Of a stretch of DNA of 36,370 nucleotides, positions 1-36,370 are shown one piece after another. This DNA comes from a virus. Location of the stretch: positions 1 to 36,370 of the IMG/VR virus record IMGVR_UViG_3300006802_000244; one strand, written 5' to 3'. The notes beneath the pieces were generated by a model. The model worked only from the letters and a program-made list of their open reading frames with translations. It had not been told where the DNA came from and did no database searches. Within the stretch, counting starts at the first letter, position 1. Every line of letters begins with the position of its first letter. The position numbers were made by a program, and so were the translations under genes.

Positions 1-259
1 CATTCATTTCTTCTTGGGTATGTTCACCTGATTCTTCTTCTGTTGATTCTGAACCTAACTCTTGTTTTTTATCCATACAATATTGGATAATGTCTTCTAA
101 ATATTCTAATGACTCTTGATTTGACATCTCCATTAAATCACTTTCAATATCACCAATGATAGATGGTTGTTGCATATGATTATCGTATTCCTCTTTAATA
201 ATCTTATTAACCAAGTTCTCGATATCTGATTCTGTTAGTTTAATTACTTTCTTTTTCAT
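1..259 (-). CDS. Small head-region protein, N-terminal part (3' end outside window)
   Basis: Only the first 86 codons are in the window; the gene continues past base 1. It starts 1 nt after the stop of the upstream gene, so it is co-transcribed with the prohead protease. The protein opens with a basic, amphipathic stretch MKKKVIKLTESDIENL, then a Glu/Ser-rich acidic region. I do not recognise a family. In T4-like head operons the position after gp21 belongs to the scaffold core (gp22) and then the major capsid protein, so a scaffold or core role is possible but unproven. The L8-T9-E10-S11 order matches both the sequence and the position of the T4 capsid-targeting leader cleavage site (IAE|A at residues 8-11). 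Confidence 0.75.
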   Translation of the reverse strand, partial: MKKKVIKLTESDIENLVNKIIKEEYDNHMQQPSIIGDIESDLMEMSNQESLEYLEDIIQYCMDKKQELGSESTEEESGEHTQEEMN

Positions 260-260
260 A

Positions 261-548
261 TTACTCTTCTTCCAATTCACCTTCAACATTACCTAATTCA
301 TCAAATAATCTACCCAATAAATTATTTACCTTACCAACAGCTTGATTTCCGGGTTGTTGAAAAAACTTACCCAACATCTCAACTGCTTTCATAAAAACTT
401 CTCTTTCTTTTGGTGATAATCCAGACTGTAATTCTTTAGCTTTAGCCATCATATCTCTTTTAACATCAGCACCACTAATTGAAGCCTCTTCAGACAAGAG
501 TCTTTTATTTAACTCTTCAATGTGTTTTAATTTGTTTAATCTATTCAT
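261..548 (-). CDS. Small head-region protein downstream of prohead protease
   Basis: A 95-aa protein with no family I recognise. It is mostly charged and predicted helical, with a hydrophobic middle (EVFMKAVEMLGKFF) and a very acidic C-terminus (ELEEE). It starts 1 nt after the protease stop codon and ends 1 nt before the next start, so it belongs to a tight head operon. Small acidic helical proteins in this position in T4-like phages are prohead core components (gp67 and gp68 beside gp21 in T4), which is a reasonable guess from context only. It carries LLSEEAS near residues 17-23, which is close to but not a strict prohead protease site. Confidence 0.8.
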   Translation of the reverse strand: MNRLNKLKHIEELNKRLLSEEASISGADVKRDMMAKAKELQSGLSPKEREVFMKAVEMLGKFFQQPGNQAVGKVNNLLGRLFDELGNVEGELEEE

Positions 549-549
549 T

Positions 550-1290
550 TTATAATATATTTTTTAAATTTTTAATTAACTCTTGGTCCTCATTTAATAT
601 AGAACCGATTTTATTACTTAATTTTGATTCAGTAAAAGTATTTAAATCTTTTTCATTGGTAGAAATCCAAGCCCCAGGTGTTGACGGTGTGGTAACAATA
701 TCCCAACAAATAATTTCAAAATCGTCTTGTACTATATTTTTACCGTTTTCAGTTTTAAGGGAACCAACTCCTCTAGATGAAATACCAACAGTCCAACCTT
801 TTCTTAACATGTTAGCCACTTTATCACCTAATGTAGAAACTATACCCATTTTATGATAACCAGGTGTTGTGTCCAATTCAATTTCACCCATCAGGGTTCT
901 ACCCTCCCACCAAGTTTTAGTAATAATATGAGATACTCTTTCACCATCAATAATAGAAGACTCTGGGTGGTTTAATTCACCTAAAGCAGTCCCCATTTTA
1001 ATGTATTCTTGGTAAACATCGTTTTGTTTCTCTAGTACTTCTTTAGGGTAAATCCTACCGTTTTTATTCTCAACACCGTATTTTTGTAATACAGCGTATA
1101 ATTTAACTGTTTCAGGTAAAATACCGTCTTCACTATATAGTTCTTGAGAATTACGACTAGAGTCAAATTCTTTTAACATAGCCGCGTTAGAACAAGTACC
1201 GTCTTTACATGTTAATTCAGGTTTTATATATCCCGAATCATACTCTACTAAGTACCCAGTCCCTGTTTCTCCTGGTTGTAATATTTTCAT
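550..1290 (-). CDS. 21: Prohead core protein protease (T4 gp21-like)
   Basis: A 246-aa serine protease of the T4 gp21 / herpesvirus assemblin type, which matures the prohead by cleaving scaffold, capsid and internal proteins. The region GELNHPES (residues 104-111) holds the expected catalytic His108 and GISSRGVG (169-176) holds the catalytic Ser (171 or 172). The TPSTPGAW segment (201-208) is also typical of the family. About 70 residues precede the conserved core. The C-terminal SILNEDQE (230-237) resembles an (I/L)xE self-processing site, as T4 gp21 is known to cut itself. It is preceded by the proposed late motif at 1311-1320 and heads an operon with the next two genes. The family assignment is strong; the self-cleavage site is inferred. 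Confidence 0.93.
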   Translation of the reverse strand: MKILQPGETGTGYLVEYDSGYIKPELTCKDGTCSNAAMLKEFDSSRNSQELYSEDGILPETVKLYAVLQKYGVENKNGRIYPKEVLEKQNDVYQEYIKMGTALGELNHPESSIIDGERVSHIITKTWWEGRTLMGEIELDTTPGYHKMGIVSTLGDKVANMLRKGWTVGISSRGVGSLKTENGKNIVQDDFEIICWDIVTTPSTPGAWISTNEKDLNTFTESKLSNKIGSILNEDQELIKNLKNIL

Positions 1291-1310: not shown

Positions 1311-1320
1311 ATATAAATAT
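1311..1320 (-). promoter_or_regulatory. Proposed late motif for prohead protease
   Basis: The coding strand reads ATATTTATAT, ending 20 nt before the protease ATG. It is one of 13 copies in the window, all oriented toward the gene they precede. It lies back to back with the host-like promoter at 1322-1329 that faces the other way. Confidence 0.55.
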
Positions 1321-1321
1321 G

Positions 1322-1329
1322 TATATTTG
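1322..1329 (+). promoter_or_regulatory. Host-like (Bacteroidota) -7 box for CCA-adding enzyme
   Basis: TATATTTG fits the Bacteroidota -7 consensus TAnnTTTG exactly and lies 36 nt before the ATG at 1366. I do not see a clear TTG at the -33 position, so this promoter rests on the -7 box only. Confidence 0.5.
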
Positions 1330-1365
1330 TTACTATATTTAGTTTTTAAAATAAATTTCACTAAG

Positions 1366-2475
1366 ATGCGTATAAAAAAATCTATAACAGTACCAAAATC
1401 TATTGAAAATATTCATAATATTTTCAAAGAAAATGAATTTAAGTTGTTTTTGGTTGGTGGTGCGGTTAGAGATTCACTTATGAACATAAACCCCAAAGAC
1501 TTTGATTTAGCCACTGACGCGATACCTGATAAAGTAAAAGAATTGTTACCTATGTATGAAACTATTGAGTCGGGTGAACAATTCGCTGTTGTTAATGTTG
1601 TTACGGATGAAGGTACTTATGAGATTGCCACTTTTCGTGAGGATATTGGTAAAGGACGTAGACCTGATGAGGTTAAATTCTCGACTATAGAAAAAGATGT
1701 ATTAAGACGTGATTTAACGATTAACGCTTTATTCTACGATTTAGATACAAATGAGGTTGTCGACCTTGTTGGTGGTATTGAAGATTTAAAGAACGGTGTT
1801 GTTAGAACTGTTGGTAAGGCTACGGACAGATTTAATGAGGATAAATTACGAATTATGAGAGCTATTAGATTTACATCTCGTGTTGGTTCTACCCTTCATA
1901 AAGACGTTTTTGACGCTATAATGTTAGATAAAACCATCATTAGTGGTGACGGTAAACCATTATCACAAGAAAGAATACAAGATGAATTTGTTAAAGGCAT
2001 CAACCAATCAATAAGTGTTGTTGATTTTCTTAATATGTTAGATGATTGTGGTTTATTTAATTGGGTTTTCCACGATTTAAAAACCGATGGGATTAAGGTT
2101 GAATCTAAAGATTTAATAGTGGTGTTATCAACTTTATTGGTGAACAACGATAACTTGGATAAGGTTTTGGTAAATGATTTAAAGTTTAATAAGTCGGTTG
2201 GTAAACAAGTTAAATTTTTAGTTGAGTTTAGTAAAAAAATCTCAGTAAAAACTGCTTTCAACTTTAAAACTAAGTTTAAAGATTTAAACATAACAGATAA
2301 AACTATTTTAGATTTTAGTGTAATTATAGGTATGGATATGTCATTAGTTAAATCCTTTATTAAGTACGAAATAACAACAAAAGGTGAGGATTTAATAAAC
2401 CTAGGGTTTAAGGGTAAATCCTTGGGTGTTGAAAAAGAAAGATTAGAAACTGAAAAATTTAAAACTCTATTATGA
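1366..2475 (+). CDS. cca: CCA tRNA nucleotidyltransferase / poly(A) polymerase family
   Basis: A 369-aa class II nucleotidyltransferase that would add or repair the CCA 3' end of tRNAs; poly(A) polymerase activity is the alternative within the family. Visible motifs are LVGGAVRD (residues 29-36), the metal-binding DFD (45-47), RRDLTINAL (motif B, about 120) and EDKLRIMRAIRF (motif D, about 165), followed by a helical tail. The frame is open upstream to a TTG at 1327, but the ATG at 1366 gives the normal family N-terminus and clears the promoter box at 1322-1329, so I chose it. The last codon overlaps the next gene by 4 nt (ATGA), which implies coupled translation with a 2H phosphoesterase and a joint tRNA-maintenance role. 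Confidence 0.92.
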   Translation: MRIKKSITVPKSIENIHNIFKENEFKLFLVGGAVRDSLMNINPKDFDLATDAIPDKVKELLPMYETIESGEQFAVVNVVTDEGTYEIATFREDIGKGRRPDEVKFSTIEKDVLRRDLTINALFYDLDTNEVVDLVGGIEDLKNGVVRTVGKATDRFNEDKLRIMRAIRFTSRVGSTLHKDVFDAIMLDKTIISGDGKPLSQERIQDEFVKGINQSISVVDFLNMLDDCGLFNWVFHDLKTDGIKVESKDLIVVLSTLLVNNDNLDKVLVNDLKFNKSVGKQVKFLVEFSKKISVKTAFNFKTKFKDLNITDKTILDFSVIIGMDMSLVKSFIKYEITTKGEDLINLGFKGKSLGVEKERLETEKFKTLL

Positions 2476-2858
2476 AAAATAAAAGAATATCATACACGGC
2501 TGTTGTATTAGACAAAAACTCACACTTAAAATTAGTTGAGTTATTAAAAGAACGTTTCGGTGATTTAACGGATTGGAAAATATTTGCTCACCACATGACC
2601 ATCAAAATGGGTGGTTTACCTGATGAACGTAAATCTTTATTGGGTCAAGAAATTGATTTGGCTATTGATGGTTTTGGTTATACTGATGATGTTGTAGCTG
2701 TTAGAGTGGATACAAATCTACAAACTAAGAATGATACACCACACATAACTTTAGCCGTTGGACCGAAGGGTAAGCCTGTAATGAGTAATTTGATTACTAA
2801 TTGGGAATATTTACAACCATTCCATGTTTACGGTACTGTAGAAGAAATCCCATTTTAA
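2472..2858 (+). CDS. 2H phosphoesterase (LigT / tRNA-ligase CPDase-like)
   Basis: A 128-aa protein with the two HxT signatures of the 2H phosphoesterase superfamily: HMT at 41-43 (AHHMTIKMG) and HIT at 91-93 (TPHITLAVG), about 48 residues apart. Members act on 2',3'-cyclic phosphates or 2'-5' linkages in RNA, as in LigT and the cyclic phosphodiesterase domain of tRNA ligases. It overlaps the CCA-adding enzyme by 4 nt. This pairing suggests end-healing of cleaved tRNAs followed by CCA repair, a counter to host tRNA-cutting defences. The superfamily is well supported by the motifs; the substrate is inferred. A strong hairpin terminator begins inside its last codons. Confidence 0.8.
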   Translation: MKNKRISYTAVVLDKNSHLKLVELLKERFGDLTDWKIFAHHMTIKMGGLPDERKSLLGQEIDLAIDGFGYTDDVVAVRVDTNLQTKNDTPHITLAVGPKGKPVMSNLITNWEYLQPFHVYGTVEEIPF

Positions 2859-3544: not shown

Positions 3545-3576
3545 AAAAAAGGTGGTTATAACCACCTTTTTTTTTT
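3543..3576. terminator. Bidirectional terminator between convergent genes
   Basis: A perfect palindrome GGTGGTTATAACCACC (3551-3566) flanked by eight A's on the left and ten T's on the right. It serves both the CAP gene and the OmpA-like gene, which converge here. Confidence 0.92.
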
Positions 3577-4654
3577 AATATTGAAATGAACAATCTAATA
3601 TTGGTCCTTTGCTTTTTTTAACTTTAAGACATTTATTTTTTTTATGTTTTGATTTACCTCCTCTATAAGATTTAAATTTTTTACCACCCTTACTTGGCTT
3701 ATAAACATTGGTTCTAACCAACTCAACCTCAATCCTTTCATCAACCCTATAAAGTGGTTCACTAACTTCAACAGGTTCAGCAATAACCACAACAAAACTA
3801 ATGTTAACGTATCTATATTCAGCAGTTTCTTTTCTAGCTTGTTCTCTTTCTTGAGATGACATTGTTTTTGTATAAATATCAGGACCTTGGTTTGGTAAAG
3901 CATTAACATTCGTTTGACTGTCAACACCTAAAGATTTTAAAACCTCAACAACACTATTAGCTCTATTATTAGCTAACTGTTCATTACCTATTTTAATAGG
4001 TTCTTTATCTGTTGAAGACTCAATATTTACTCTAACAATCTTACCATTCATACTTTTTATAGCTTGTATAGTTTGTGTTATTGAGTCTATAACTTCAGGT
4101 TTTAATTTATAACTACCTGAAATAAACATATCACCACTAGAAAAATCAATATCAACAGTTCTTTGTGCGTAAACAACATCACCAGGTTCTACGATTGTAT
4201 CCCTGTGTACTACGATATCCGATACAGCATAACCATATTTTAATTTAGAAGTTATGTTAGACCTTTGGTTTTTAACATCTTTAAGTCTTAAACTAAGTTT
4301 CATATTCTTTTTTCTAGCCGCCAAATCAAAATCACTCTCAACCTTATCAGCGTTCTTTTCTAAATAACCGTTTAATTGTTCGGGTGACATTTTAAGGAAC
4401 TTAGCTAACTCAGCTTTACCCTCTTCATTTTCTAAAGTCGATTTTATCTGTGTCAAAACCTCAGTTTTGTTTATAGCGTCATTAGCTTTTTGTGCCATTA
4501 ACTGATTACCACCAAAAGTGGCTCCCAATAACATAGCAGCGCCCAAAGCAACCTCTTTAAAACCTTCTTCTATTATTTCAGGTTTATTATCTTTACTAAT
4601 TTGAGAGACAATCTTTTTCATCTGTGTCTCTGTTATGTGATATTTTTTAGCCAT
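3575..4654 (-). CDS. OmpA-like domain protein with capsid-leader-like N-terminus
   Basis: A 359-aa protein. Residues about 165-290 form an OmpA C-terminal-like domain, the fold that binds peptidoglycan; the signature helix is NEQLANNRANSVVEVL (about 228-243). The N-terminus is not a signal peptide. It is a short helix MAKKYHITETQMKKIV followed by EIIEEGFKE (26-34), where I28-E29-E30|G31 fits the T4 prohead protease consensus. A hydrophobic, Ala/Gly-rich helix follows (35-55). The C-terminus is very Lys-rich (residues 319-350). The gene has the proposed late motif (4667-4676). A virion protein that engages the peptidoglycan during entry is one reading. No export signal is seen, so lysis from the cytoplasm alone seems unlikely. 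Confidence 0.75.
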   Translation of the reverse strand: MAKKYHITETQMKKIVSQISKDNKPEIIEEGFKEVALGAAMLLGATFGGNQLMAQKANDAINKTEVLTQIKSTLENEEGKAELAKFLKMSPEQLNGYLEKNADKVESDFDLAARKKNMKLSLRLKDVKNQRSNITSKLKYGYAVSDIVVHRDTIVEPGDVVYAQRTVDIDFSSGDMFISGSYKLKPEVIDSITQTIQAIKSMNGKIVRVNIESSTDKEPIKIGNEQLANNRANSVVEVLKSLGVDSQTNVNALPNQGPDIYTKTMSSQEREQARKETAEYRYVNISFVVVIAEPVEVSEPLYRVDERIEVELVRTNVYKPSKGGKKFKSYRGGKSKHKKNKCLKVKKSKGPILDCSFQY

Positions 4655-10820: not shown

Positions 10821-11960
10821 TTATTTTAATGTGGTGATTGTTTCAGGATAATTTACCAACAACGCCCTCTCATCTTTACCTTCATAAGGTACTTGACTTA
10901 TAACATATCTCATCGCATTTAAACCACTAATTCTTTTATCGTTAGCGTCAATAACAGTCCAAGGTGCATAACTTGTTGAGGTAACTTTAAACACCCTTTT
11001 CTTATAGTTAGTGTACTCTTCCCACTTTTCTTGTGCTTTCGCATCATTAGGACTGTACTTCCAATATTTTAAAGGACTGCCTTTTCTTAAATCAAATCGT
11101 TTTTCTTGAGTGTCTTTGGTTATCGAAAACCAAAACTTGATTAGGTAATTACCAGAGGCAACCAAACTTTTTTCAAAACCGTTTACGTTTGCCATAAATT
11201 CTTCGTATTCATCATAAGAAGAGTAACCCATCACAGGTTCAACAATACCTCTGTTATACCAAGACCTGTCAAAGAATATAATTTTACCAGGTTCAATATC
11301 TGATTCATATCTAGCGAACCAATTTTTCTTTTCTTCTTCTGTTGGGATATCTTTAACTACCACCTTATAAAATTTAGGGTCTAGGTATTCAGTAAACTTT
11401 TTAATGGTTGAACCTTTACCAGCAGTATCCCTACCTTCAAATAGAATAATAACCGATGAACCTGTTTTTTTTAACCATTCTTGCATTTTAAGTAATTCTA
11501 TCTGTAATATTGTTTTTTCTTTTTGGAATTGTTTTTTAGGTATTTGTGATTTCTCACCTTCGGTGTCTAAATAATCTTCGTTAGGGTAATTATTGGTATA
11601 CGCGTCTCTACTATTTAAAGAATCTATTATTTTATTTAGGTATTTTTTAACATTTTCACTTTTACTACCTTTCTTAAGTAAAACATTAGACATAGTCCTA
11701 CCCAAAATACCGAAATTTATTTGTTTAGAATTTTCATGTTTCTCTATTTTATTTAGTAACTCAATAACTTCTATAGAATCGATGTTGTTGTTCTTTAACA
11801 ATTTTTCTATCTCATCCAACTCGTATCTTTGCTCCGTAGAAGTTTCAACTTTATTACCGAACAAACTATTTAATAAATCCTTAAAAAAACCTTCAGTTAT
11901 AGTTTTTTTGTTATTTACCATTAGTTCTTTAATTCTATGTGTTTCTGTCAATAATCCCAT
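10821..11960 (-). CDS. ppk2: Polyphosphate kinase 2 (PPK2) with N-terminal extension
   Basis: A 379-aa protein. Residues about 145-375 form a PPK2 kinase domain, which moves phosphate between polyphosphate and nucleotides. Key parts are Walker A FEGRDTAGKGST (174-185) and the Walker B/lid block FFDRSWYNRGIVEPVMGY (229-246). Free-standing PPK2 enzymes are typically around 230-300 aa, so the first 140 residues are extra. They begin MGLLTETHRIKEL and contain TITEGFFKDL (20-29), where I21-T22-E23|G24 fits the T4 prohead protease site. The gene is 20 nt downstream of the terminase and has the late motif 3 nt before the ATG. I infer a late, possibly head-packaged enzyme that could make NTPs from host polyphosphate at the start of infection. 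The kinase identity is firm; packaging is a hypothesis. Confidence 0.92.
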   Translation of the reverse strand: MGLLTETHRIKELMVNNKKTITEGFFKDLLNSLFGNKVETSTEQRYELDEIEKLLKNNNIDSIEVIELLNKIEKHENSKQINFGILGRTMSNVLLKKGSKSENVKKYLNKIIDSLNSRDAYTNNYPNEDYLDTEGEKSQIPKKQFQKEKTILQIELLKMQEWLKKTGSSVIILFEGRDTAGKGSTIKKFTEYLDPKFYKVVVKDIPTEEEKKNWFARYESDIEPGKIIFFDRSWYNRGIVEPVMGYSSYDEYEEFMANVNGFEKSLVASGNYLIKFWFSITKDTQEKRFDLRKGSPLKYWKYSPNDAKAQEKWEEYTNYKKRVFKVTSTSYAPWTVIDANDKRISGLNAMRYVISQVPYEGKDERALLVNYPETITTLK

Positions 11961-15552: not shown

Positions 15553-15975
15553 TTATAGTGTTTTTGTTTTGTTCGGTGTGTAATCTAACTCAATATCTAA
15601 AGTTAATAATTTAGCCTCAACTTCAGTTTTATGGTCCCCAAATTTAAAAACTAACCTTTCTATTTCATCATCAATTTCTTCATCTTCATCCCATTTTTCC
15701 CAACCTAAAGCTATAATTCCTTCTACAGCATTATAAACTTGGAACACCCCAGACTCTTGTACGAGTTCCAAATCTAATTCATCAGTTTGTAAAAAACCAA
15801 CCTCTTTTATAAAAGAAGGTGGAGGTGTCAATTCTGAAGTGTCTGTCACAACACTAGATTCATACCACTCTTCTTCCCAATCATGGTCTGTTCTATCCGA
15901 AAAGAGGAACTCAAACATGTGTTCCCCTTTATAGTTAGTACCAATTTTATTTATGTAGATTAATTTTAAATCCAT
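15553..15975 (-). CDS. Unrecognised 140-aa acidic protein
   Basis: An acidic protein with alternating beta-prone segments (LKLIYINKIG, HMFEFLFSD, ERLVFKFGDH, AKLLTLDIELDY). It has no signal peptide, TM segment or known motif. The start shares one base with the upstream stop (TAATG), and the next gene begins 2 nt after its stop, so translation is coupled across three genes. In other T4-like phages small adaptor or completion proteins occur in such positions; I cannot assign it. Confidence 0.75.
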   Translation of the reverse strand: MDLKLIYINKIGTNYKGEHMFEFLFSDRTDHDWEEEWYESSVVTDTSELTPPPSFIKEVGFLQTDELDLELVQESGVFQVYNAVEGIIALGWEKWDEDEEIDDEIERLVFKFGDHKTEVEAKLLTLDIELDYTPNKTKTL

Positions 15976-17771
15976 TATTCAAATGTTACGTCATCATCAT
16001 TTTCAGCTTTTGCTGGAGCTGGTTCCACATCTCTATCTGGTGGAGTAAATGGTGTCGTACTAGGTCTAGTACGTGGTTTTCCAGGTTTAGTACCAGGTCT
16101 AGTTCCAGGTTTAGTACTTGGTCTTTCTTTTGGTCTTGCTGGAGATGGTGACATTGTAGGGTCATCCATATAACTCTCATTTTCAGCTTTTGCTGGAGCT
16201 GGTTCCACATCCCTATCTGGTGGTGTAAATGGAGTTGTTGATGGTCTAGTACGTGGTTTTCCAGGTTTAGTACCAGGTCTAGTTCCAGGTTTAGTACTTG
16301 GTCTTTCTTTTGGTTTTGGACTATTCATACCATAAATATCATCATTATCTACCATATAGTCAACATTTTCAGTTTTCCAACCAATACCCGAACTGTCCTC
16401 AGTTTTCCAACTAGTCATACCCTCATCAACAGGGTTGCCTTCATAGTCACAAGTTTCAAAATCATCATCTGACATATAAACCATAGGTCCTTCTAAATCA
16501 ACATCGTCAAAACTTGTATTATTAGGTAATTTATAACCTCTTTTCATTTCATCAAAAGAAGGTTTGTTGTAATGTGAACTCATATCTTTTTCAGCTTGTC
16601 TTTCAGCTCTTGGGTCATATATGTCGTGGTCGTCATCCATGTAAGATGTTTTATTATCATCACCAGCTAAATAACCTAAATAACCAGCCGGATATTCACT
16701 ACTCATATATGAAGTGTCGTATAATAATTCCTCACCCGCTTCTAATTCAGGTTCACCACCTCTTTCATAATCATCATCCATGAAGTCAACCTCTTCTTTA
16801 GGGTTATCACCAGATTCTATTTTATTTATGATAGAATCTTTATCATTACTATCCAGTCTAGAAAGGTCTAAAGCTGAAAGAACACTGTTTACAACATATT
16901 TTTGCATATCAGAAGATAAATCTTCAGTATCTCTTAATTGTTGTCCTAATTTACCTGTAGTTCTTTGGATATCTTTAATTGGGTCGTCACCTACAACGTC
17001 TTCACCCTCGTCACCAATTTCTTCTTCATCTCCGAAATCAAATTCTTCTTCACCTTCTTCTGTATCAGTTTCTTCTTCATCTCCGAAATCAAATTCTTCC
17101 TCACCAGTATCACCTTCTTCTTCATCTCCGAAGTCAAATTCTTCCTCACCAGTATCACCTTCTTCTTCATCAGAACCAAAGTCAAATTCTTCGTCACCTT
17201 CTTCTTCATCTCCGAAGTCAAATTCTTCCTCACCAGTATCACCTTCTTCTTCATCAGAATCATCACCAAAATCCATAGATGGTTCTTCTTTTTTCTTAGG
17301 TTTAGGTTGTTTTAATACGAACTTTTTTTCTTGTAATTCTTCTTTTTCACCATCCATAAGAATTTCAGAATCATCTTCCTCTTTTTCATCAACATCTTTG
17401 TAGTCACCAGACTCTGTTAAAACATAATCAAAAGTCTTCATATCAACTGACTCTTTTATACCATAATTTCTGTTGATGTCGTTAAAAATTAAGTTTAATT
17501 TAAAAGTGGCATCCTCAAAAGAATGGTAAGAGTGTTTGTTTTTATTTTGTACACCACCAATGTAATTAAAATCACTTTCCTTTAAAGTAGTTTTACTAGT
17601 TGTCGATTTAATATAATAATTTCTATTCTCTCTAACTATAGCATATGTATTACCATCAGAAGCTTTTTTAATAAGTTCGATAGCACCCATATTTCTATTA
17701 GTACTTTCTTTCATAGAAGTACCTTTAATATTAGATAATTCTAAAAGTCTTTTTAGTTGTTTTTGATTCAT
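15975..17771 (-). CDS. Large acidic repeat-containing protein (prohead core candidate)
   Basis: A 598-aa unrecognised protein. Residues 1-22 form a helical leader (MNQKQLKRLLELSN, then GTSMKEST). A compact domain at about 28-105 includes ASDGNTYAIVRENRNYYIKS. Residues 160-255 are acidic tandem repeats of the FDFGDEEEGDTGEEE type. A long disordered acidic stretch has recurring YM(D/S)DD peptides. The C-terminus has two copies of a basic Pro/Arg/Thr/Lys repeat (KERPSTKPGTRPGTKPGKPR). In the first 125 residues, SMKES, TLKES, GIKES and VLTES recur; two of these fit the prohead protease consensus. High acidity and probable protease sites fit a scaffold or core protein, but this is inference. The opposite-strand open frames over the repeats are artefacts. 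Confidence 0.78.
   Translation of the reverse strand: MNQKQLKRLLELSNIKGTSMKESTNRNMGAIELIKKASDGNTYAIVRENRNYYIKSTTSKTTLKESDFNYIGGVQNKNKHSYHSFEDATFKLNLIFNDINRNYGIKESVDMKTFDYVLTESGDYKDVDEKEEDDSEILMDGEKEELQEKKFVLKQPKPKKKEEPSMDFGDDSDEEEGDTGEEEFDFGDEEEGDEEFDFGSDEEEGDTGEEEFDFGDEEEGDTGEEEFDFGDEEETDTEEGEEEFDFGDEEEIGDEGEDVVGDDPIKDIQRTTGKLGQQLRDTEDLSSDMQKYVVNSVLSALDLSRLDSNDKDSIINKIESGDNPKEEVDFMDDDYERGGEPELEAGEELLYDTSYMSSEYPAGYLGYLAGDDNKTSYMDDDHDIYDPRAERQAEKDMSSHYNKPSFDEMKRGYKLPNNTSFDDVDLEGPMVYMSDDDFETCDYEGNPVDEGMTSWKTEDSSGIGWKTENVDYMVDNDDIYGMNSPKPKERPSTKPGTRPGTKPGKPRTRPSTTPFTPPDRDVEPAPAKAENESYMDDPTMSPSPARPKERPSTKPGTRPGTKPGKPRTRPSTTPFTPPDRDVEPAPAKAENDDDVTFE
16000..16314 (-). repeat. Two 135-bp direct repeats, period 180 bp
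   Basis: Copies at 16000-16134 and 16180-16314 are nearly identical and in frame. They encode a Pro/Arg/Lys-rich peptide ending in PPDRDVEPAPAKAEN. The spacing of exactly 180 bp keeps the reading frame. The few differences include substitutions in the TTPFT segment. Confidence 0.92.
17015..17275 (-). repeat. Acidic tandem repeat (FDFGDEEE units)
   Basis: Five to six imperfect copies of a unit around 45-57 bp encoding (E)EEFDFGDEEEGDTG. The DNA shows repeated ttcttcatctccgaagtcaa strings. It is prone to copy-number change by recombination or slippage. Confidence 0.88.
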
Positions 17772-18073: not shown

Positions 18074-19123
18074 TTATTCTTTAGTTTCTTCAGATTTAGT
18101 TATAAAAGATGAAGGTAACATGTATTTTTTTAATTTTGGTGACCGACTTAGTAATATATACACAACACCACCAGGTAAAATAGAAGCTAATGTAAGACCA
18201 GTTGCTTTAAGTACATCACCAATTTGGTTTTTAACAAATAGTCTATCATCGTCGTTTAATTCTTTTTTTTCTTTTATTGATTTAATGACCATATTCCAAG
18301 CCTCTTGTGTTTCTTTACCTTCTGTTTTTAATTTTTCAATAAATTTTTTAAAAGATTCTTTTATTTTATCAATACTACCTTCCATAATAACACCTTCTAA
18401 AGTTAAAGATTTATCGTAAGCTAAATTTTTTATATCGTATAGTCTGTCTAACATACCATTTCTTCTAAGTACTTTAAAAGCCATATTCTCAACAGAAAAC
18501 TCACCCACAGAATCAAGACCACATTGTCTCATCTTTTTTATCTTGTCAGTTAGTTTTTCAGCTCTTTTAACTATGGATTCATAATCTCTATCTTCATCTA
18601 AGTCATCATATAACTCTTCTATTCTATCCATAACTTTATTAGCTTTGTCTCTAACAGATTTTTTATCTATAGTCACCTTTTGTTTTTCAGGTCTAATATT
18701 CCACTCATCATTTAAAACAGAGTAAACACCACTAGATGTATGTTTTTCAGATATATCCTGTACGTATAACTCAACGTCAAAACCATATATTTGAATATCA
18801 TGTTCTTTGTTCCAAGCTGAACTTTTAGATTTTAAAAAATCTAAAACTAAATCCTCATCAACTGGGATATCTCTATAATCCACCAATATATGTAAATCAA
18901 CGTCTGAATATTTGGACCAATTATAGTTAGCCAAACTACCAGTCATAGTGACATCCTCAATATCAACATCAACCAAACCTAAACTCTCAAAATAGTCGTC
19001 AGCTATCTTTAATAAAGTTTTTCTAACCTCAGGTTTCATCTTTTCATTGTCCCAAACCTTAGGGTTCAACTCATCATTCATCTTAAATCCTGATAAATCT
19101 ATTTCTTTGTTTAATTTTTCCAT
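18074..19123 (-). CDS. Nucleotidyltransferase (pol-beta/MNT-like) with C-terminal membrane domain
   Basis: A 349-aa protein. Residues about 45-140 are a minimal nucleotidyltransferase: the GS pair in TGSLANYN (62-63), the DxD in SDVDLHIL (74 and 76), and a third acidic strand FDVELYVQD (about 115-123). Such enzymes transfer a nucleotide to RNA, antibiotic or protein; the target here is unknown. A helical region follows, then GVIMEGSIDKIKES (244-257), where I246-M247-E248|G249 fits the prohead protease consensus. The last 100 residues contain a hydrophobic segment ASILPGGVVYILL and end LPSSFITKSE. So an enzyme and a membrane-type domain are joined by a possible cleavage site. With its late motif, it is a candidate packaged effector, comparable in concept to T4 Alt. 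The transferase fold is well supported; the rest is inference. Confidence 0.82.
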   Translation of the reverse strand: MEKLNKEIDLSGFKMNDELNPKVWDNEKMKPEVRKTLLKIADDYFESLGLVDVDIEDVTMTGSLANYNWSKYSDVDLHILVDYRDIPVDEDLVLDFLKSKSSAWNKEHDIQIYGFDVELYVQDISEKHTSSGVYSVLNDEWNIRPEKQKVTIDKKSVRDKANKVMDRIEELYDDLDEDRDYESIVKRAEKLTDKIKKMRQCGLDSVGEFSVENMAFKVLRRNGMLDRLYDIKNLAYDKSLTLEGVIMEGSIDKIKESFKKFIEKLKTEGKETQEAWNMVIKSIKEKKELNDDDRLFVKNQIGDVLKATGLTLASILPGGVVYILLSRSPKLKKYMLPSSFITKSEETKE

Positions 19124-19138: not shown

Positions 19139-19143
19139 TCATG

Positions 19144-19153
19144 ATATTTATTA
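19144..19153 (+). promoter_or_regulatory. Proposed late motif for 173-aa protein
   Basis: ATATTTATTA on the plus strand, 6 nt before the ATG at 19160. Only 5 nt separate it from the oppositely oriented copy at 19130-19138. Confidence 0.55.
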
Positions 19154-19159
19154 AATGTA

Positions 19160-19681
19160 ATGAAAGAAGTTATTAAGAAAATATTAAAGGAAGATTTTGG
19201 TTGGGCTGAAGATATCAACCCAGTATCAAAAGAAGAAATATCCGAACACCTAACAGGTTTAGCTCAAGATTATGGGTATAACCAATATGACGGTAAACTT
19301 ACAGACGTTATCTACCATTTAGGATTAAATAAAGAAAAGTTAAAAAGTCTTTATGGAGTATTATATGGTTTAGCTGAAGGAACATATCACTACGGTGTTG
19401 AGATTGGTTGGTCTGAAGGTTACTCTTCTGGTGAACAAGAAGGTAGAGTTGGATATGATAATGCCTATAATGACGCGTATGATGACGCTAAACAATCTGT
19501 TTATGATGGGGCGTACGATGAAGGTTATGACGAAGGTTATAATGAAGGTCTTGAAGAAGGATACCGAAAAGGTTATGAGGAAGGGTCTGAAAAAACTTAT
19601 TATAAAGCATTCGAAGAAGGTAGAGCGTATCAGGAAAAACAAAATAAAGGTGAAGTAGATTTTGAATCGTTAGAATATTGA
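19160..19681 (+). CDS. Repeat protein with DFGW junction leader and YDEGY repeats
   Basis: A 173-aa protein of unknown function. It begins MKEVIKKILKEDFGWAEDIN, the same junction (KE-DFGW-xE-DI-x-P) that recurs in the long repeat protein at the right end of the window. Residues about 20-60 form a small helical domain. Residues about 72-160 are Tyr/Gly/Glu-rich with a 4-residue periodicity (AYDEGYDEGYNEGLEEGYRK). This pattern is usually a regular amphipathic helix or a flexible surface. It has a late motif and is followed 3 nt later by another small gene. Confidence 0.75.
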   Translation: MKEVIKKILKEDFGWAEDINPVSKEEISEHLTGLAQDYGYNQYDGKLTDVIYHLGLNKEKLKSLYGVLYGLAEGTYHYGVEIGWSEGYSSGEQEGRVGYDNAYNDAYDDAKQSVYDGAYDEGYDEGYNEGLEEGYRKGYEEGSEKTYYKAFEEGRAYQEKQNKGEVDFESLEY

Positions 19682-28287: not shown

Positions 28288-29199
28288 ATGAAATTAGGAT
28301 ACGCTTGTATAAATATGACCCTTGGTTCACAGAAACCAAAAATCACTACTAATCGTGGGATGATTAGAAAAACTTTTGATTCTAAAGGTTTAACTTATGT
28401 TTCTGAGTTAGCGTTACAAAATGTACGTGACCTTGCAACTGTTGTGTCTTGGAATCACCGTAATGGTATACAGTTCTACCGTATGTCTTCAGATATGTTT
28501 CCTTGGATGTCGGAGTATGAATTTACAGATTTACCCGACCACGACAAAATTTCAAATATATTACGTGGTATTGGTACAATGGCTAACGAATATGGACAAC
28601 GTTTATCTTTCCATCCTGGTCCATTTAACGTCCTCTGTTCACCTAAACAAGACGTTGTAGACAAAACGGTTAGAGAACTTAATAAACACTCTCAAATCAT
28701 GGATATTATGGGTCTATCAACAACACCATACAACAAAATCAATATACATGTTGGTGGTGTTTATGGTGATAAACAATCTGCTTTACAACGTTGGTGTGAC
28801 AACTTCGAGTTACTCGACGACAACACCAAGTCACGACTTACTATTGAGAATGACGACAAGACTTCAGCTTATACTGTTCGTGACCTCATGTATATTCATG
28901 AAAATACTGGTATACCGATTGTTTTTGACTATCACCACCATAGTTGTCACCCTGATGGTATGTCACATAAAGACGCACTTACTTTAGCTGTATCAACATG
29001 GCCAACAGGTATCACACCAGCCGTACACGTATCAGAACCTCGTGACGACAAAAACCCACGTGCTCATCACGACTATATCCGTACTCAAGTTGACACTTAC
29101 GGTTTTGACATTGATATAATGATGGAAGCTAAAGCCAAAGAACAAGCTTTACTTGAGTATCGTACTTCTTTTGAAAATGTTTTAGTTGACTCTAATTAG
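28288..29199 (+). CDS. uvsE: UV damage endonuclease (UVDE/UvsE family)
   Basis: A 303-aa TIM-barrel endonuclease that nicks 5' of UV photoproducts as the first step of an alternative excision repair. Conserved blocks are LGYACINMTLGS (3-14), the LSFHPGPFNVLCSP segment (106-119, metal-binding His), INIHVGGVYGDK (151-162), LTIENDD (184-190) and IVFDYHHHSCH (211-221), then AVHVSEP near the C-terminus. Length is normal and the metal ligands appear complete, so it should be active. The frame is open upstream to 28255, but the ATG at 28288 gives the family N-terminus and lies just past the promoter. It ends in an 18-nt tail-to-tail overlap with the minus-strand 717-aa gene. Confidence 0.93.
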   Translation: MKLGYACINMTLGSQKPKITTNRGMIRKTFDSKGLTYVSELALQNVRDLATVVSWNHRNGIQFYRMSSDMFPWMSEYEFTDLPDHDKISNILRGIGTMANEYGQRLSFHPGPFNVLCSPKQDVVDKTVRELNKHSQIMDIMGLSTTPYNKINIHVGGVYGDKQSALQRWCDNFELLDDNTKSRLTIENDDKTSAYTVRDLMYIHENTGIPIVFDYHHHSCHPDGMSHKDALTLAVSTWPTGITPAVHVSEPRDDKNPRAHHDYIRTQVDTYGFDIDIMMEAKAKEQALLEYRTSFENVLVDSN

Positions 29200-31335
29200 G
29201 ATATACTCGGTCCCATTTACCTCTTCAGTTTGATACCTACCGTCATACCCACTAATTTGACCATAATCTTCGTCTTGGGTTAAATAATCCAGAATACCAT
29301 CACGGTCAACACCAAAACCCATATGTTCTATAACTTCAGAAGAGTCACTAAACCAACCTTTTTCATTAACCAAACAGTAAATAGGGTATTCCATACACCT
29401 TTCACATTCATCTATATAATCTTGTCTAACATATTCTTTTAACTTTTCTATATACTCTTCTTTAGTTTCAGGTATATTTTCCAGTTTCTTCTCAATAACT
29501 ATAAGTACATTAGTCAACTTATCAACCTTATTTTGGAAAACTTCAAACTCTTCTTCAGTGTGTGGTTGTTCTAAATAACCGTATTGTATATAATCTTGGT
29601 TTTGTATTTCCATGGTTTCAAGAGCTTCCCTATATTGATTGATAATCTCTTCAACCTCTTCATACTCTTTTTCCAATTCTTCATATTCCTCATTTAACTC
29701 TTCTATCTCAGCTAAAATATCGTAATCACCATAATATTCTAAATAGTCCTCATTAGACATATCATAAAATTTATTATCAGCCTCATCATCACAAAAACTA
29801 CTCACCCAATACGAACTAACGTCAATATAATCATCAAGGTCAATACCTAAACCCTCATAACCTACATCATCCAATAAATTATCATAGTATTCGTATAAAG
29901 CATTACCCATAGAAGTTGCATCACCAACAACCCATTCTTCACCAGAACTAGTATGTATCACATCAAGGTTACCATACCAATCCGAATGTTGTTCATCAAA
30001 ACCATCACCCAAAACATTATTACTACCCAATAATTTAATTAAAGCTTCTACTTCTGGTTTGTCTGGGATAGATTCTATATGACTTTTTACCCAATCAAAG
30101 TCATTAGATTCCTTAATAAAAGATTCATCTACATATCTATTCAAACTTAAATCACTAGCCCCGTAATATATTATTCTCTTATCATTATTACTAGTGTAAT
30201 CAACTTTTGACATGTAATCACTGTTCGGGTTATATTTGTAACCTAAAACAGTACCGGATTTTAATTTATATCTGATAGATAATCTACGTTGTTTTTGTGG
30301 GTTTGAACGACCAACATTGGACCAATAAAGTTCTATATATTCAGAGGGTATAAATGTGTTTTCTTCATAAAAAACACCAGCAAAATTTTCACTAATATAC
30401 TCTAAAATAGACTCCCCCCACCCACTACTTTTTATATAGGAAAAAAGTAAATCTATTATGTGGTTATACACCTTAATAAAATCATCAGTTTTAACCTCGT
30501 CGGGTAATTGTTCTGGATTTTTATATATGGCAAAAAATTCTGATAAATAACTATCACCCAAAACGTCCATATATTTAACTTCAACAAAGTCATTAACACC
30601 AATCAGTTTTTTATCCGTGTTTTCCACAAAAAGTGGTGATACACATTTTAAATCAGCTTTTATAAATTCTTCTTTACTAACATTTTTAGATAAAACCTCA
30701 ACTAAACTATTGTTTAAAGAATTTATGGTTTTACTACCACTAATAACATCCATTACTAATTCATAAAACTTCTTATCTAAAAATTCATCCGACCTATATT
30801 GCAGTCTTAACCCTGTTGTATGTTTAATGAAGTGCTCACCAACAAAACTATTTTCGTATTCTTGGTATTTTGTGGTTGTGGCTAATTTGATTAGAGCATC
30901 CAACTCCTCATCTGTAGTTGGTACATCCTCATCTTTTAATTTATCTATAATCTTAATGACCTCTTTTTTGTCACTATCTTTTAAGTATTCAGAGAATATT
31001 TTTATAGAATTTAAAGGCATGTTACTATCTAATAACATGTTCATTAGTTTATGAAACCTTCTACGATTATCTAAAAGATTAGGTCTTAGTTTTTGGTATA
31101 TAATGTTTACGTTTTTACCTAAATCTTTGGTCATACCTAAATCTAGTTTAGATACAACCTCCAACTCCTTTAACCTACAATATATATTCTTTGGGTCATC
31201 ATTGTTTTTCTCACAAAGATAGTGAAAATCAATTTCACCTGTCGGTGTGACTGCCTGTGAGTCGTTAACTCCATCAGTATCTTCAATCAATAAACCCCTT
31301 CTTTTTAAAAAATTTATATTCTCATTTACCTTCAT
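29182..31335 (-). CDS. Two-part 717-aa protein joined by ESNDFDW junction (cargo candidate)
   Basis: I do not recognise a family. Residues 1-405 form a mixed helical part with a leader MKVNENINFLKRRGLLIEDT. Then comes SFIKESNDFDWVKSHIESIP (405-424), the same junction as in the long repeat protein at 33751-36370. Residues 425-717 are an acidic second part with a Glu-rich coiled coil (EIEELNEEYEELEKEYEEVE) and a small C-terminal domain including GYGRYQ-like strands ending ILIRVN. A cut at FIKE|SNDF would split it into about 409 and 308 residues. The P3 residue is Ile (I407-K408-E409|S410), which fits the T4 consensus. It has the late motif 3 nt before its ATG. The internal junction is visible; processing is inference. 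Confidence 0.78.
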   Translation of the reverse strand: MKVNENINFLKRRGLLIEDTDGVNDSQAVTPTGEIDFHYLCEKNNDDPKNIYCRLKELEVVSKLDLGMTKDLGKNVNIIYQKLRPNLLDNRRRFHKLMNMLLDSNMPLNSIKIFSEYLKDSDKKEVIKIIDKLKDEDVPTTDEELDALIKLATTTKYQEYENSFVGEHFIKHTTGLRLQYRSDEFLDKKFYELVMDVISGSKTINSLNNSLVEVLSKNVSKEEFIKADLKCVSPLFVENTDKKLIGVNDFVEVKYMDVLGDSYLSEFFAIYKNPEQLPDEVKTDDFIKVYNHIIDLLFSYIKSSGWGESILEYISENFAGVFYEENTFIPSEYIELYWSNVGRSNPQKQRRLSIRYKLKSGTVLGYKYNPNSDYMSKVDYTSNNDKRIIYYGASDLSLNRYVDESFIKESNDFDWVKSHIESIPDKPEVEALIKLLGSNNVLGDGFDEQHSDWYGNLDVIHTSSGEEWVVGDATSMGNALYEYYDNLLDDVGYEGLGIDLDDYIDVSSYWVSSFCDDEADNKFYDMSNEDYLEYYGDYDILAEIEELNEEYEELEKEYEEVEEIINQYREALETMEIQNQDYIQYGYLEQPHTEEEFEVFQNKVDKLTNVLIVIEKKLENIPETKEEYIEKLKEYVRQDYIDECERCMEYPIYCLVNEKGWFSDSSEVIEHMGFGVDRDGILDYLTQDEDYGQISGYDGRYQTEEVNGTEYILIRVN

Positions 31336-31338
31336 GTT

Positions 31339-31348
31339 ATATAAATAT
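31339..31348 (-). promoter_or_regulatory. Proposed late motif for 717-aa protein
   Basis: Coding strand ATATTTATAT, 3 nt before the ATG at 31335. It overlaps by one base the stop of the upstream 81-aa gene. Confidence 0.55.
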
Positions 31349-31593
31349 CAAAAAGGCCCAATAATACCTTCATTATTTATACATTGTTTGTAGGGTAAGA
31401 AAAATAATTCATCGTGTGAAAACACAATCCAAGTAATATTCTTAGGTGGTGTTTTTGGTTGTTTTAGTGTACCTCCAATATCATAACACCATTTAAGTGG
31501 TGAAACTTTTCCTCGGTGGTTATCGTAAAACCAATCAACAAAACCATGTTCCTTCATAACACTGAGAACATCATCATATAATTCATCTATCAT
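31348..31593 (-). CDS. Unrecognised 81-aa protein
   Basis: A small protein with an N-terminal acidic helix (IDELYDDVLSVMKEHGFVDW) and aromatic-rich beta-like strands (NITWIVFSHDELFFLPYK). No membrane segment, signal or known motif. It lies between the 80-aa and 717-aa genes in the same direction. I cannot assign a function. Confidence 0.65.
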   Translation of the reverse strand: MIDELYDDVLSVMKEHGFVDWFYDNHRGKVSPLKWCYDIGGTLKQPKTPPKNITWIVFSHDELFFLPYKQCINNEGIIGPF

Positions 31594-33750: not shown

Positions 33751-36370
33751 TTACCTAAGGTTATACCAATACTTTTCACGACCTTCAGGTACCCAGTTAC
33801 CTGTTTGTAAGTGTCGGTTAATAGTTTCCAAACTTAATTCTTGGAAAGCTGAACCACTATCGGGTTTTGGTCTTATCTTGAACATGAACTTATCACCTTC
33901 TAGTTCTTCAACCACAGTCCATGTATATCTTGTGTTTTTAACTCTGAATATATCCATGACTTGAGGTTTCCCTTGTACCTCATCAGCCCAATCAAACTCA
34001 GTAGACTCGTTAATGAAATCGCCACAGGTATCAGGATAAAAACTCCAACCTTCCCGACAGAATTCTTTCTTAGATAGTTCCATAACATACTCAACGCGTA
34101 CAAACTCACGAGGGTCAAACTTACCATTTTTAACACCCCATTCAATAACTCCAGTACCTTCATCACCAGGTCCACCCATATCACCAACTTCCAAATCCCA
34201 AATCTCTTCAACTTCCTTTTTAGGTATTCTTAAGAAATAAGAACCACCATCTAAACATTCATCTTCACCCGTTTCTTCGTCGTATTGGTTATCACCACAA
34301 GTATACACATCAAAGAATCTATATTCATCCGCTTCTGGTACATCAACAATCCAATCAAAATCATTAGATTCTGTTATATTACTACCTAACTTTAATAATC
34401 TATCATATTCTTCAGGGTTTTTTTGTAGATAACCAGGTACATCAACCCTTTTCCAAAAACCACTATATATGTTTTTTGAAACTTGTGACATCTTAGTTGA
34501 GTTGGCTCCACTATAACCATACTTATCCCAACCCATACTAACAGCTTCACTATTTATTTTATCAATATCGATATAAGTTCCTCTATCCATTGAACCTTTA
34601 TGGTGTGCAAATCTAACCCATTTACCATCAGGTGATATATCAACAATTTCAAAAGTAACCTCAGCATTCAAATCTTTAGGTGTAAAATCAGTCCTAGTGT
34701 GAAATACATCACCTACCGACACAATTGGTTTTACATCTCTAATCCAATCAAAGTCATTAGATTCTGATAAATCTTTCCTATCCCAACCCATTAAAAACCT
34801 ATATTTACGCCAAACTTTATGTATGATATCCTTGTCATCAACACCATACTCTTTGGTTACGTAAGTCGAAAAAGACATTTTCTCACTATCAAACGGAAAA
34901 GCACCTTCAGACTTTCTGTACATATCGTTAGCTATATAGATGTAAGTTATAGGTATATCATTAGCCCACTCAAAGTCACTAGATTCGTTAATTTTATCAT
35001 TTAAATAATCATAACCATTAACAACTACAGCGTTATGGTCTATAACCGTACTTAAATTATATTGTCTACTAAGTTCCTCATCATCTCTAAAAAAATTATC
35101 AGGTTTGTCCTTCACCATCAACATAACACCCCTATCCCTAAAATCAGATGGCATTTGTCTATATCTTTCATTAGAAGTGTCCCAATTATAACACTCAAAT
35201 AAGATTATTCTTTTACCTTCGGTATCTTTTTTGGTTACAGGATTGAATTCGTTTTCTCTACCTGGAAAATGGTACCCCATATCAAACAACCTTTTTTGTA
35301 GTCCAGTTGTTTCATCAATATCCACACCGCTTTCAAAGTAAATAGCGAAATTACGACCATCAATATCATCCAAGGAACCAAAATTTATATCATTTAAAAT
35401 AGACCAATTAGGGTCGTATTCGCGAATTAAATCATTTTCTATTTTATCTATAATACTTTGTTCACTCCACCACTCATTACATTTATCAGAACGTGAATTT
35501 AAATCTCTAAACCTATGGCCCATTATTATTTCACCACTATCTGGGTGGTCTGTTTTACCTTTACCACAATAAACCTTATTGGTCCAAGTACCGCTATGGT
35601 TTTTAACACGGTAAGTTTCACCTGGTGTTAACCCAGGTTTTATATTTTCTGTCCATCCGAAATCACTAGATTCAAGCCAATCAAACTCTTCAGTTATATG
35701 TTCCGATTCATATTGTTGATATATCCAATAAGGTTCTAATTCTTTTTCAGTTACAGACCCATCATCATTGTGTTCGTAAGTTTTTCTAGGTTTTAGTAAC
35801 CTTACAGCCTCATTGTATGTAACATAACCTTTTTCACCAACAGGTTCGTCCTCATCGTTAGATACAATTATCTCGTAATGAACATCTTCATCAACTTTAT
35901 ATACTTTAAGTAACATATGTAAATCCCCACCAATACTTCTATTGGGGTTGATTTTATAGACAGCACCAACATGAATCATATCCTCTAACTTATCAACCTT
36001 TGGTTTTACATCATTAGTCCACTCAAAATCGTTGGATTCGTTTAATGGTTCGTCACCATAAGCCATATGATAAAATTCTTCTAATGAAATCATTTGGTAC
36101 CTACCACCAAAAGTTGGGTCTGTTGCATTTCTTGGGGACCAGTCTAAAGCGTACCCTTCTGGGACTTCATCATTCGGTTCAAAATATACATAACCTACGG
36201 TATTATATTCAACCCCTATTTCAACATCATAATCCATGTTATAAGCAAAATCCCATATATCATCAATAGTTTCTCGTAATTTAACACCACTTAAACTTCT
36301 AATATCTAAAACATAATATTTTTCCTTATCCCATTCAGTTTCAGGTTGAATACCTTTAATCCAATCAAAA
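33751..36370 (-). CDS. Modular repeat protein with ESNDFDW junctions (5' end outside window; polyprotein candidate)
   Basis: The frame stays open through the right edge, so the ATG at 36237 is internal and the gene starts outside the window; 872 residues are visible. It is a chain of modules of about 75-230 residues separated by a junction of the form (I/L)xES-(N/S)DF(D/E/G)W-xx-(D/E)(V/I). Clear examples are LNESNDFEWTNDVKP, LESSDFGWTENIKP, INESSDFEWANDIP, LSESNDFDWIRDVKP, ITESNDFDWIVDVP and INESTEFDWADEV. A partial FDWIKGIQP lies at the very edge. Modules after the junction share a beta-type opening (PGETYRVKN, VGDVFHTRT, VMDIFRVKN, VGAVYKINP), so they look like diverged duplicates. The first residues of the junction fit the T4 prohead protease consensus, so the chain may be cut into several small internal head proteins. 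No known family is recognised. Confidence 0.85.
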   Translation of the reverse strand, partial: FDWIKGIQPETEWDKEKYYVLDIRSLSGVKLRETIDDIWDFAYNMDYDVEIGVEYNTVGYVYFEPNDEVPEGYALDWSPRNATDPTFGGRYQMISLEEFYHMAYGDEPLNESNDFEWTNDVKPKVDKLEDMIHVGAVYKINPNRSIGGDLHMLLKVYKVDEDVHYEIIVSNDEDEPVGEKGYVTYNEAVRLLKPRKTYEHNDDGSVTEKELEPYWIYQQYESEHITEEFDWLESSDFGWTENIKPGLTPGETYRVKNHSGTWTNKVYCGKGKTDHPDSGEIIMGHRFRDLNSRSDKCNEWWSEQSIIDKIENDLIREYDPNWSILNDINFGSLDDIDGRNFAIYFESGVDIDETTGLQKRLFDMGYHFPGRENEFNPVTKKDTEGKRIILFECYNWDTSNERYRQMPSDFRDRGVMLMVKDKPDNFFRDDEELSRQYNLSTVIDHNAVVVNGYDYLNDKINESSDFEWANDIPITYIYIANDMYRKSEGAFPFDSEKMSFSTYVTKEYGVDDKDIIHKVWRKYRFLMGWDRKDLSESNDFDWIRDVKPIVSVGDVFHTRTDFTPKDLNAEVTFEIVDISPDGKWVRFAHHKGSMDRGTYIDIDKINSEAVSMGWDKYGYSGANSTKMSQVSKNIYSGFWKRVDVPGYLQKNPEEYDRLLKLGSNITESNDFDWIVDVPEADEYRFFDVYTCGDNQYDEETGEDECLDGGSYFLRIPKKEVEEIWDLEVGDMGGPGDEGTGVIEWGVKNGKFDPREFVRVEYVMELSKKEFCREGWSFYPDTCGDFINESTEFDWADEVQGKPQVMDIFRVKNTRYTWTVVEELEGDKFMFKIRPKPDSGSAFQELSLETINRHLQTGNWVPEGREKYWYNLR
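33975..36369 (-). repeat. Dispersed junction repeats within the modular protein
   Basis: Copies lie near 36361-36369 (partial), 36001-36045, 35641-35700 (two in tandem, EEFDWLES then SSDFGWTE), 34951-34998, 34726-34775, 34343-34382 and 33975-34018. The DNA also recurs, as variants of ccaatcaaagtcattagatt. Spacing is about 350, 345, 690, 225, 390 and 365 nt. A further copy is at 30091-30120 in the 717-aa gene, and a diverged one at 19181-19220. Confidence 0.88.

Follow-up and report, generated by a model that had tools for sequence, protein, structure and literature searches.

The T4 internal proteins IPI-III and Alt carry a capsid-targeting sequence (CTS) that is cut by the prohead protease gp21. 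The targeting sequence is a 10-residue propeptide and gp21 cleaves after L/I-X-E (PMC9026906). These proteins are diverse accessory proteins that have the tag alone in common, each is encoded by one gene without module chains, and the late head cluster of the phage includes gp20, gp21 and gp23. Three further T4 proteins, gp22, gp67 and gp68, are cut by gp21 several times within the prohead. These are scaffold or core components, and the small peptides to which they are degraded are for the most part lost from the head. Many internal head proteins of phiKZ and SPN3US are trimmed by a gp21-like prohead protease, which recognizes a short motif with a terminal Glu (AxE or SxE) and sometimes cuts one protein at several sites. 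The SPN3US cuts remove propeptides of 20-254 residues and none of them frees repeated modules from one chain.

A second class of related proteins is formed by the polyvalent proteins (Iyer et al. 2017, PMC5512222), which join disparate domains in one virion-linked chain and are characterized by a mosaic domain order, lysozyme and nucleotidyltransferase modules, and solo versions of the same domains. Their authors likened these chains to RNA-virus polyproteins with embedded peptidases (PMC5512222), and their processing, if any, is thought to be due to an in-chain, zincin-like peptidase.

The locus described here belongs to a giant, T4-like phage. As in T4, diverse accessory proteins share only a short, N-terminal propeptide ending in (I/L)xE, and there is a late head cluster with gp20, gp21 and gp23. 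In contrast to T4, the units are fused into a chain, the tag reads MKxLIKKI instead of MKTYQEF, and DF(D/E)W follows the putative cut. The several cuts proposed here resemble those in gp22, gp67 and gp68, which lack the modular, shuffled and independently encoded domains seen in the chain, and the (I/L)xE motif differs from the AxE or SxE of phiKZ and SPN3US. The mosaic domain order, the lysozyme and nucleotidyltransferase-like modules of relatives and the solo domain versions are shared with the polyvalent proteins; unlike these, the modules of this clade are mostly of unknown family and prohead-protease-type sites lie at nearly all joints. On strong but indirect sequence evidence, the reading frame probably encodes a precursor of head-packaged cargo, composed of fused tagged genes and cut by gp21 in the prohead. 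In its favour are the match of the junction core to the capsid-protein site, the targeting-type tags of stand-alone counterparts, the shuffling of modules with breakpoints at the junctions, a late-promoter-like element common to tagged and virion genes, and a lysozyme module in a relative's chain. When compared to the open-licence literature, what appears to be new is that cargo modules are strung together with a site of the prohead-protease type at almost all of their joints.

The multi-module reading frame and the predicted prohead-protease site

The window is the whole stretch of DNA analysed, 36,370 bp, and it corresponds exactly to its IMG/VR record, so that the N-terminus of the multi-module open reading frame (ORF) is missing. 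The ORF's own N-terminus, promoter and first module all lie beyond the contig edge, a point against the head-cargo reading. When the upstream part was sought by exact DNA, the related contig G012 was the sole match, and a copy of the C-terminal 309 residues (99%) is present on contig L002. A whole-ORF AlphaFold prediction (8 rows) had a mean pLDDT of 36 and was set aside as too poor to interpret. Junctions were identified with the strict pattern [IL]xE(0-5)[DE]F[DEGNS]W, and modules were defined by splitting at junctions and then compared all-against-all. The features are listed below, with the arrow marking the putative cut point.

36369..33751 (-): multi-module ORF, 872 residues visible, 5' end beyond the contig
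36361..36369 (-): truncated junction 0 (FDW; FDWIKGI, residue 1) at the contig edge, which breaks at TTTTGATTGG
36037..36369 (-): module 1 (residues 1-111), 95.5% to G012 module 4
36019..36045 (-): junction 1, LNE↓SNDFEW (residues 109-117), strict match
35689..36036 (-): module 2 (residues 112-227), 71.6% to G009 module 5, end to end
35677..35697 (-): junction 2, ITE↓EFDW (residues 225-231), strict match; the G009 counterpart is ITE↓SNDFDW
35653..35676 (-): weak junction 2b, LE↓SSDFGW (residues 232-239), without I/L at P3
35392..35688 (-): module 3 (about residues 228-326), no relative found in the module comparison
35356..35400 (-): degenerate junction 3, ILNDINFGSLDDIDG (residues 324-338; ILNDINFGSLDDI at 324-336), identified by eye, non-strict
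34984..35391 (-): module 4 (about residues 327-462), no relative found in the module comparison
34966..34992 (-): junction 4, INE↓SSDFEW (residues 460-468), strict match
34762..34983 (-): module 5 (residues 463-536), 94.6% to G009 module 3
34744..34770 (-): junction 5, LSE↓SNDFDW (residues 534-542), strict match
34369..34761 (-): module 6 (residues 537-667), 84.7% to G009 module 4; domain family of module 8
34351..34377 (-): junction 6, ITE↓SNDFDW (residues 665-673), strict match
34006..34368 (-): module 7 (residues 668-788), 46.8% to G009 module 6; relatives in G006 and G002
33988..34014 (-): junction 7, INE↓STEFDW (residues 786-794), strict match
33754..34005 (-): module 8 (residues 789-872), predicted small SH3-like beta barrel
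550..1290 (-): gp21-type prohead protease (PF03420), candidate processing enzyme
29182..31335 (-): second fusion protein, 717 residues with one internal junction; its C-terminal module is stand-alone in G006
30091..30117 (-): junction IKE↓SNDFDW (residues 407-415) of the second fusion protein
19160..19681 (+): stand-alone tagged protein, MKEVIKKILKE↓DFGWAEDINP, with GATATTTAT upstream

Six strict junctions are present in the ORF, starting at residues 109, 225, 460, 534, 665 and 786 (LNESNDFEW, ITEEFDW, INESSDFEW, LSESNDFDW, ITESNDFDW and INESTEFDW, respectively), against a mean of 0.008 and a maximum of one in 20,000 residue shuffles. With two weaker copies and the one truncated at the contig edge, the total comes to nine, so that the repeated junctions of the same form reported by the initial annotation (at least seven) are real. 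Junction 0 itself is confirmed by G012, where a 95%-identical module is preceded by INELNEDFDWIKDI (INELNE↓DFDW). The annotation had also counted four junctions of the (I/L)xES form. Here, the form is correct and the number is five, with cuts after residues 111, 462, 536, 667 and 788; the ORF has no [IL][NTS]E[STAG] sites elsewhere. Its proposal that the modules arose by duplication is upheld for modules 6 and 8, members of one domain family, and for the junction cassette. It does not extend to the other window modules, between which no relation is detectable: in the all-against-all comparison most modules are mutually unrelated and only the junction cassette is common to them.

The phage encodes a gp21-like protease, as had been noticed earlier (PF03420, 98.9 bits versus a cut-off of 27, E=4.6e-30, at 652-1101 on the minus strand). 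In the major capsid proteins of about 40 relatives, a Glu is fixed at the cut point. The T4 gp23 cut, E65↓A66, aligns with LINE↓T, LLTE↓S, LLSE↓S, LLNE↓S, LINE↓A or LISE↓T in the clade, and with IVSE↓A in the Flavobacterium phage immuto. From these alignments we infer that the clade's own gp21 site is (I/L)(N/T/S)E↓(T/S/A). The cores of the window junctions (LNE↓S, INE↓S, LSE↓S, ITE↓S, INE↓S and ITE↓E) have the same form as this capsid site, in agreement with the match to the gp21 site that had been proposed. The C-terminus of gp21, which is processed in T4, reads ILNE↓D, LLSE↓E, YLSE↓N or TLNE↓N in the clade and ILNE↓DQELIKNLKNIL in the window.

Internal junctions resemble the capsid site, since N, T or S occupies P2 in 49/86 of them as compared to 4/57 N-terminal tags (p about 2e-10 by Fisher's test, with the qualification that junction copies are related and the counts not independent). 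Points against the head-cargo reading are the degenerate junction between modules 3 and 4 and the E at P1' of the junction at 227. DF(D/E)W is the best-kept part of the junction, yet it is absent from the capsid site and must therefore serve another purpose.

The tag across the clade

The relatives read were G001 (210 kb), G002 (380 kb) and G003 (226 kb), plus pieces of seven smaller contigs; these genomes are metagenomic fragments, and gene starts were taken as the first possible start codon. The signal is present in 143 copies in 85 distinct proteins, with 57 copies N-terminal and 86 internal. N-terminal forms are typically MKxLIKKILKE↓.. or MNIKKIIKEE..DF(D/E)W. Counted from the likely start, their Glu is mostly residue 9-12, a position like that in the N-terminus of T4 ipII/ipIII (MKTYQEFIAE↓A). 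In the 57 proteins of relatives, the helix ahead of the signal is basic and of the same size as the T4 CTS, and the 57 stand-alone or first-module tags have the form of a 10-20-residue propeptide with a gp21-type site at its end; the corresponding end of the window ORF is off the contig. Sequence similarity to the T4 CTS (MKTYQEF..) was not found, agreement being limited to the length, the Lys at position 2 and the I.E end.

Among 725 proteins of G001-G003, [IL]xE is over-represented where its Glu falls on residue 9 (4.9-fold) or residue 11 (4.0-fold). The signal was observed 18 times in G001, 32 times in G002 and 7 times in G003, versus 0.22, 0.32 and 0.17 in shuffled sequences, respectively. 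In four genomes, 74/87 occurrences of DF[DEGNS]W have [ILVM]xE within 9 residues upstream (background, 13-16%). A set of 98 proteins, most with the tag and largely unrelated outside it, aligns to the consensus IKKIIKEExxDFDW, in which E11 is conserved at 90% or more. Within chains, a few internal junctions have an intact targeting helix (SIKNIIREELDDFDW, NLKKIIREEVEDFDW and SIKRIIKEEMDEFEW), as is expected of fused tagged genes, while most have lost the helix and kept (I/L)xE. Relatives of the stand-alone tagged protein at 19160..19681 retain the tag in G001, G002, G003 and G009. Arguing against the head-cargo reading, the G009 polyprotein starts without a DFDW tag, that of G012 has only IYKENDFERC at its start, and tagged genes are located also far from the head cluster.

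Searching the viral collection with tag DNA patterns returned only 9, 10 and 23 stretches. Nearly all of those read code for tagged proteins; where head genes are present, the stretch belongs to the same gp21/capsid clade. Neither the whole window ORF (tblastn) nor the tag had a match in INPHARED, and the search yielded no cultured member; matches of the 19160 gene there, to Gordonia and Streptomyces phages, were short and were rejected as spurious. Junction DNA had 35 matching stretches in 257 Gb of bacterial genomes, which are considered background because merely 4 are in frame and each of these is single. DFDW tags were absent from the stretches read of Lak-B5 and LR745206, megaphages that share the nucleotidyltransferase gene described below, and from those of LR756508, a 484-kb relative by portal.

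Other N-terminal peptides were observed alongside. A second tag class, MKKVIRLTESDLEKLVKKIIKEE, is found on many small proteins whose genes lie between those of the protease and the capsid protein (2-289, minus strand, in the window; between gp21 and gp23 in L020, L017 and L016), and its RLTE↓S is likewise compatible with the gp21 site. CTS-like N-termini without DFDW are present on stand-alone proteins, including a lysozyme and a sigma factor. The latter, a sigma-70 factor of G001 (L119:6505-7047, plus strand), begins with MEKLIKKILKEELLKE and is possibly packaged and ejected. In the window, polyphosphate kinase 2 (10821-11960, minus strand; PF03976, E=1e-71; MGLLTETH..KTITEGF) and an OmpA-domain protein (3575-4654, minus strand; MAKKYHITETQ) have N-terminal (I/L)TE↓(T/G) sites and are perhaps head-targeted too. 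At 1327-2858 (plus strand), CCA-transferase-like and 2H-phosphoesterase-like genes lie on the opposite strand within the head cluster; the window copy of the former lacks the tag-like MKDMIRKILKEN with which its L004 relative begins.

Module content and exchange

Pfam, PHROGs and PADLOC recognized few families in the window ORF and the 98 tagged proteins, and the window ORF contains no known Pfam family. There were 9 Pfam families in the 98-protein set versus 61 from 70 untagged G001 proteins, the latter at a stricter cut-off and including Hsp70, thymidylate synthase, portal and capsid protein. Among relatives, the following chain has a last module that is a T4-type lysozyme (PF00959, E=2.9e-21), located after LSE↓DGKTEPDMEW and with two-module relatives in L016 and G002.

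L140:15525-18068 (+): G010 polyprotein, shortly downstream of the capsid gene

The first module of the G009 polyprotein resembles a nucleotidyltransferase (weak match) and is related to a nucleotidyltransferase-like gene in the window (18074-19123, minus strand; phrog_36119, E=1e-50). This gene is also found in Lak megaphages and cyanophages. A guess from sequence that G012:30337 is a nuclease was unsupported by Pfam or PDB searches. An acidic protein encoded elsewhere in the window (15975-17771, minus strand) contains EEEFDFGDEEEGD repeats and two copies of a RPKERPSTKPGTRPGTKPGKPRTRPSTTPFTPPDRDVEPAPAKAEN stretch.

Module 8, modelled with seven relatives, is predicted to form a small SH3-like barrel (pLDDT 79, pTM 0.65), for which Foldseek returned nothing below 1e-3 in PDB and BFVD. 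The model suggests that module 8 folds on its own. Its junction residues, 1-10, lie outside the predicted fold (pLDDT about 55), a point in indirect support of the precursor reading; their burial inside a single domain is what the initial annotation had named as refuting it. In all four module comparisons dN is below dS, clearly so for modules 1, 2 and 7 and mildly for modules 5-6.

The window ORF consists of several distinct modules of no known family, and it is the relatives with lysozyme or nucleotidyltransferase-like modules that combine disparate domains as polyvalent proteins do. Lysozyme and Pol-beta nucleotidyltransferase domains are known from polyvalent phage proteins, of which some large ones enter the virion unprocessed (PMC5512222). 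With comparable modules in the relatives here, and with DF(D/E)W conserved better than the cut site, the main alternative, conceivable if rather unlikely, is that the ORF encodes an uncut, multi-domain virion or ejected (polyvalent) protein, the junctions being uncleaved flexible linkers or core-binding motifs inherited from the N-terminal tags of the fused genes. However, the internal joints lost the targeting helix, kept (I/L)xE and moved at P2 and P1' towards the capsid site, which goes beyond what linkers alone would need. Furthermore, Pfam recognized no embedded peptidase domain, and neither a zincin-like peptidase nor an ArdC-N domain was found in five polyproteins at E up to 1.

The modules are independent shuffling units bounded by junctions. 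Their order is 1-2-3-4-5-6-7-8 in the window and x-x-5-6-2-7-x-x in G009. Module 5 of G012 occurs as a gene of its own, with tag, in G009 and others (73%), as does the C-terminal module of the second fusion protein in G006 (E=9e-32). Module 1 matches weakly (E=1.7e-6) a stand-alone tagged gene behind the major capsid gene (G001:112369), in an alignment that begins just after the tag. BLASTN homology blocks start and end within about 25 nt of junctions, and the junction DNA is 87-96% identical across 22-40 nt between many unrelated modules; the joints are therefore probably also crossover points. The window (TTTTGATTGG) and the related contig G011 both end inside a junction, as an assembler is expected to break at a short repeat.

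The similar DNA, the block ends and the contig breaks would also fit a junction that is mainly a recombination cassette, that is, short repeated DNA driving module exchange while the encoded peptide has no special role. This is very unlikely, as in G001 and G002 both junction DNA and residues vary, yet (I/L)xE and the aromatic pattern persist, and as the tag is also found on stand-alone genes, which have nothing to exchange.

Genome setting and proposed pathway

In several relatives, tagged genes, the G010 polyprotein among them, lie shortly downstream of the capsid gene; others are located elsewhere. The element [GC]ATATTTAT is found 12-45 nt before the start codon of 40/142 tagged versus 104/1138 untagged genes (odds ratio 3.9, p=2e-9; "tagged" comprises both tag classes). 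The untagged genes with the element include gp21, terminase, portal and tail tube, the last with a gp19 match (E=2e-4) below Pfam's cut-off. It is also present ahead of the G009 and G010 polyproteins and of the window's two other tagged genes. We infer that this element is a late promoter. The T4 late promoter TATAAATA was tried as well and, unlike GATATTTAT, is not enriched before tagged genes. In the window, the element is located as follows.

1313-1321 (-): [GC]ATATTTAT element
19143-19151 (+): [GC]ATATTTAT element
31341-31349 (-): [GC]ATATTTAT element, late-promoter-like GATATTTAT ahead of the second fusion gene, from the element search

The position of the G010 polyprotein behind the capsid gene and the element before the G009 and G010 polyproteins place these chains near late or virion genes, as is the case for polyvalent proteins. 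It is very unlikely that the tag is a localization signal for another destination (for example membrane, phage nucleus or host target) that resembles a gp21 site by chance. Points for such a role are the short, basic N-terminal helix, the spread of tagged genes over several genome regions and a sigma factor with a CTS-like start. Against it, the length and (I/L)xE end of the tag agree with the cleaved CTS of T4, the promoter-like element is common to tagged and virion genes, and the capsid gene is directly followed by several tagged genes.

If the ORF encodes a cargo precursor cut by gp21, genes for small virion-internal proteins, each with a capsid-targeting peptide, would have been fused into one reading frame. 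The ancestral targeting peptide would have ended in a gp21-type site, MK..IIKKI(I/L)KE↓, followed by DF(D/E)W. Within the fusion, most targeting helices would have been lost, with (I/L)(N/T/S)E↓S and DF(D/E)W kept at nearly every joint. The precursor would be made late, together with other virion proteins, and would enter the prohead core via the targeting signal of the first module, with DF(D/E)W perhaps used for core binding. Here, the phage's gp21 protease would cut it into proteins of roughly 75-140 residues, which would remain in the head and be ejected with the DNA. The similar junction DNA would let phages swap modules by recombination. The broader proposal, that of a phage-head polyprotein in which the capsid-maturation protease acts in trans on a chain of many cargo proteins and separates them at a repeated junction, itself also a recombination site, has about an even chance of being correct.

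With the junction as a sequence signature, giant phage genomes can be searched for unknown proteins ejected from the head; the yield here was 85 proteins, nearly all of unknown family. The junction is possibly also usable as a modular tag, by which several proteins could be loaded and released from one precursor in phage heads. If cut at its joints, such a cargo chain would unite the tagging of T4 internal proteins, which uses a 10-residue tag, with the polyvalent or polyprotein idea. Should this polyprotein strategy be true, phages would be able to gain, lose and rearrange the effectors they eject, like beads on a string.
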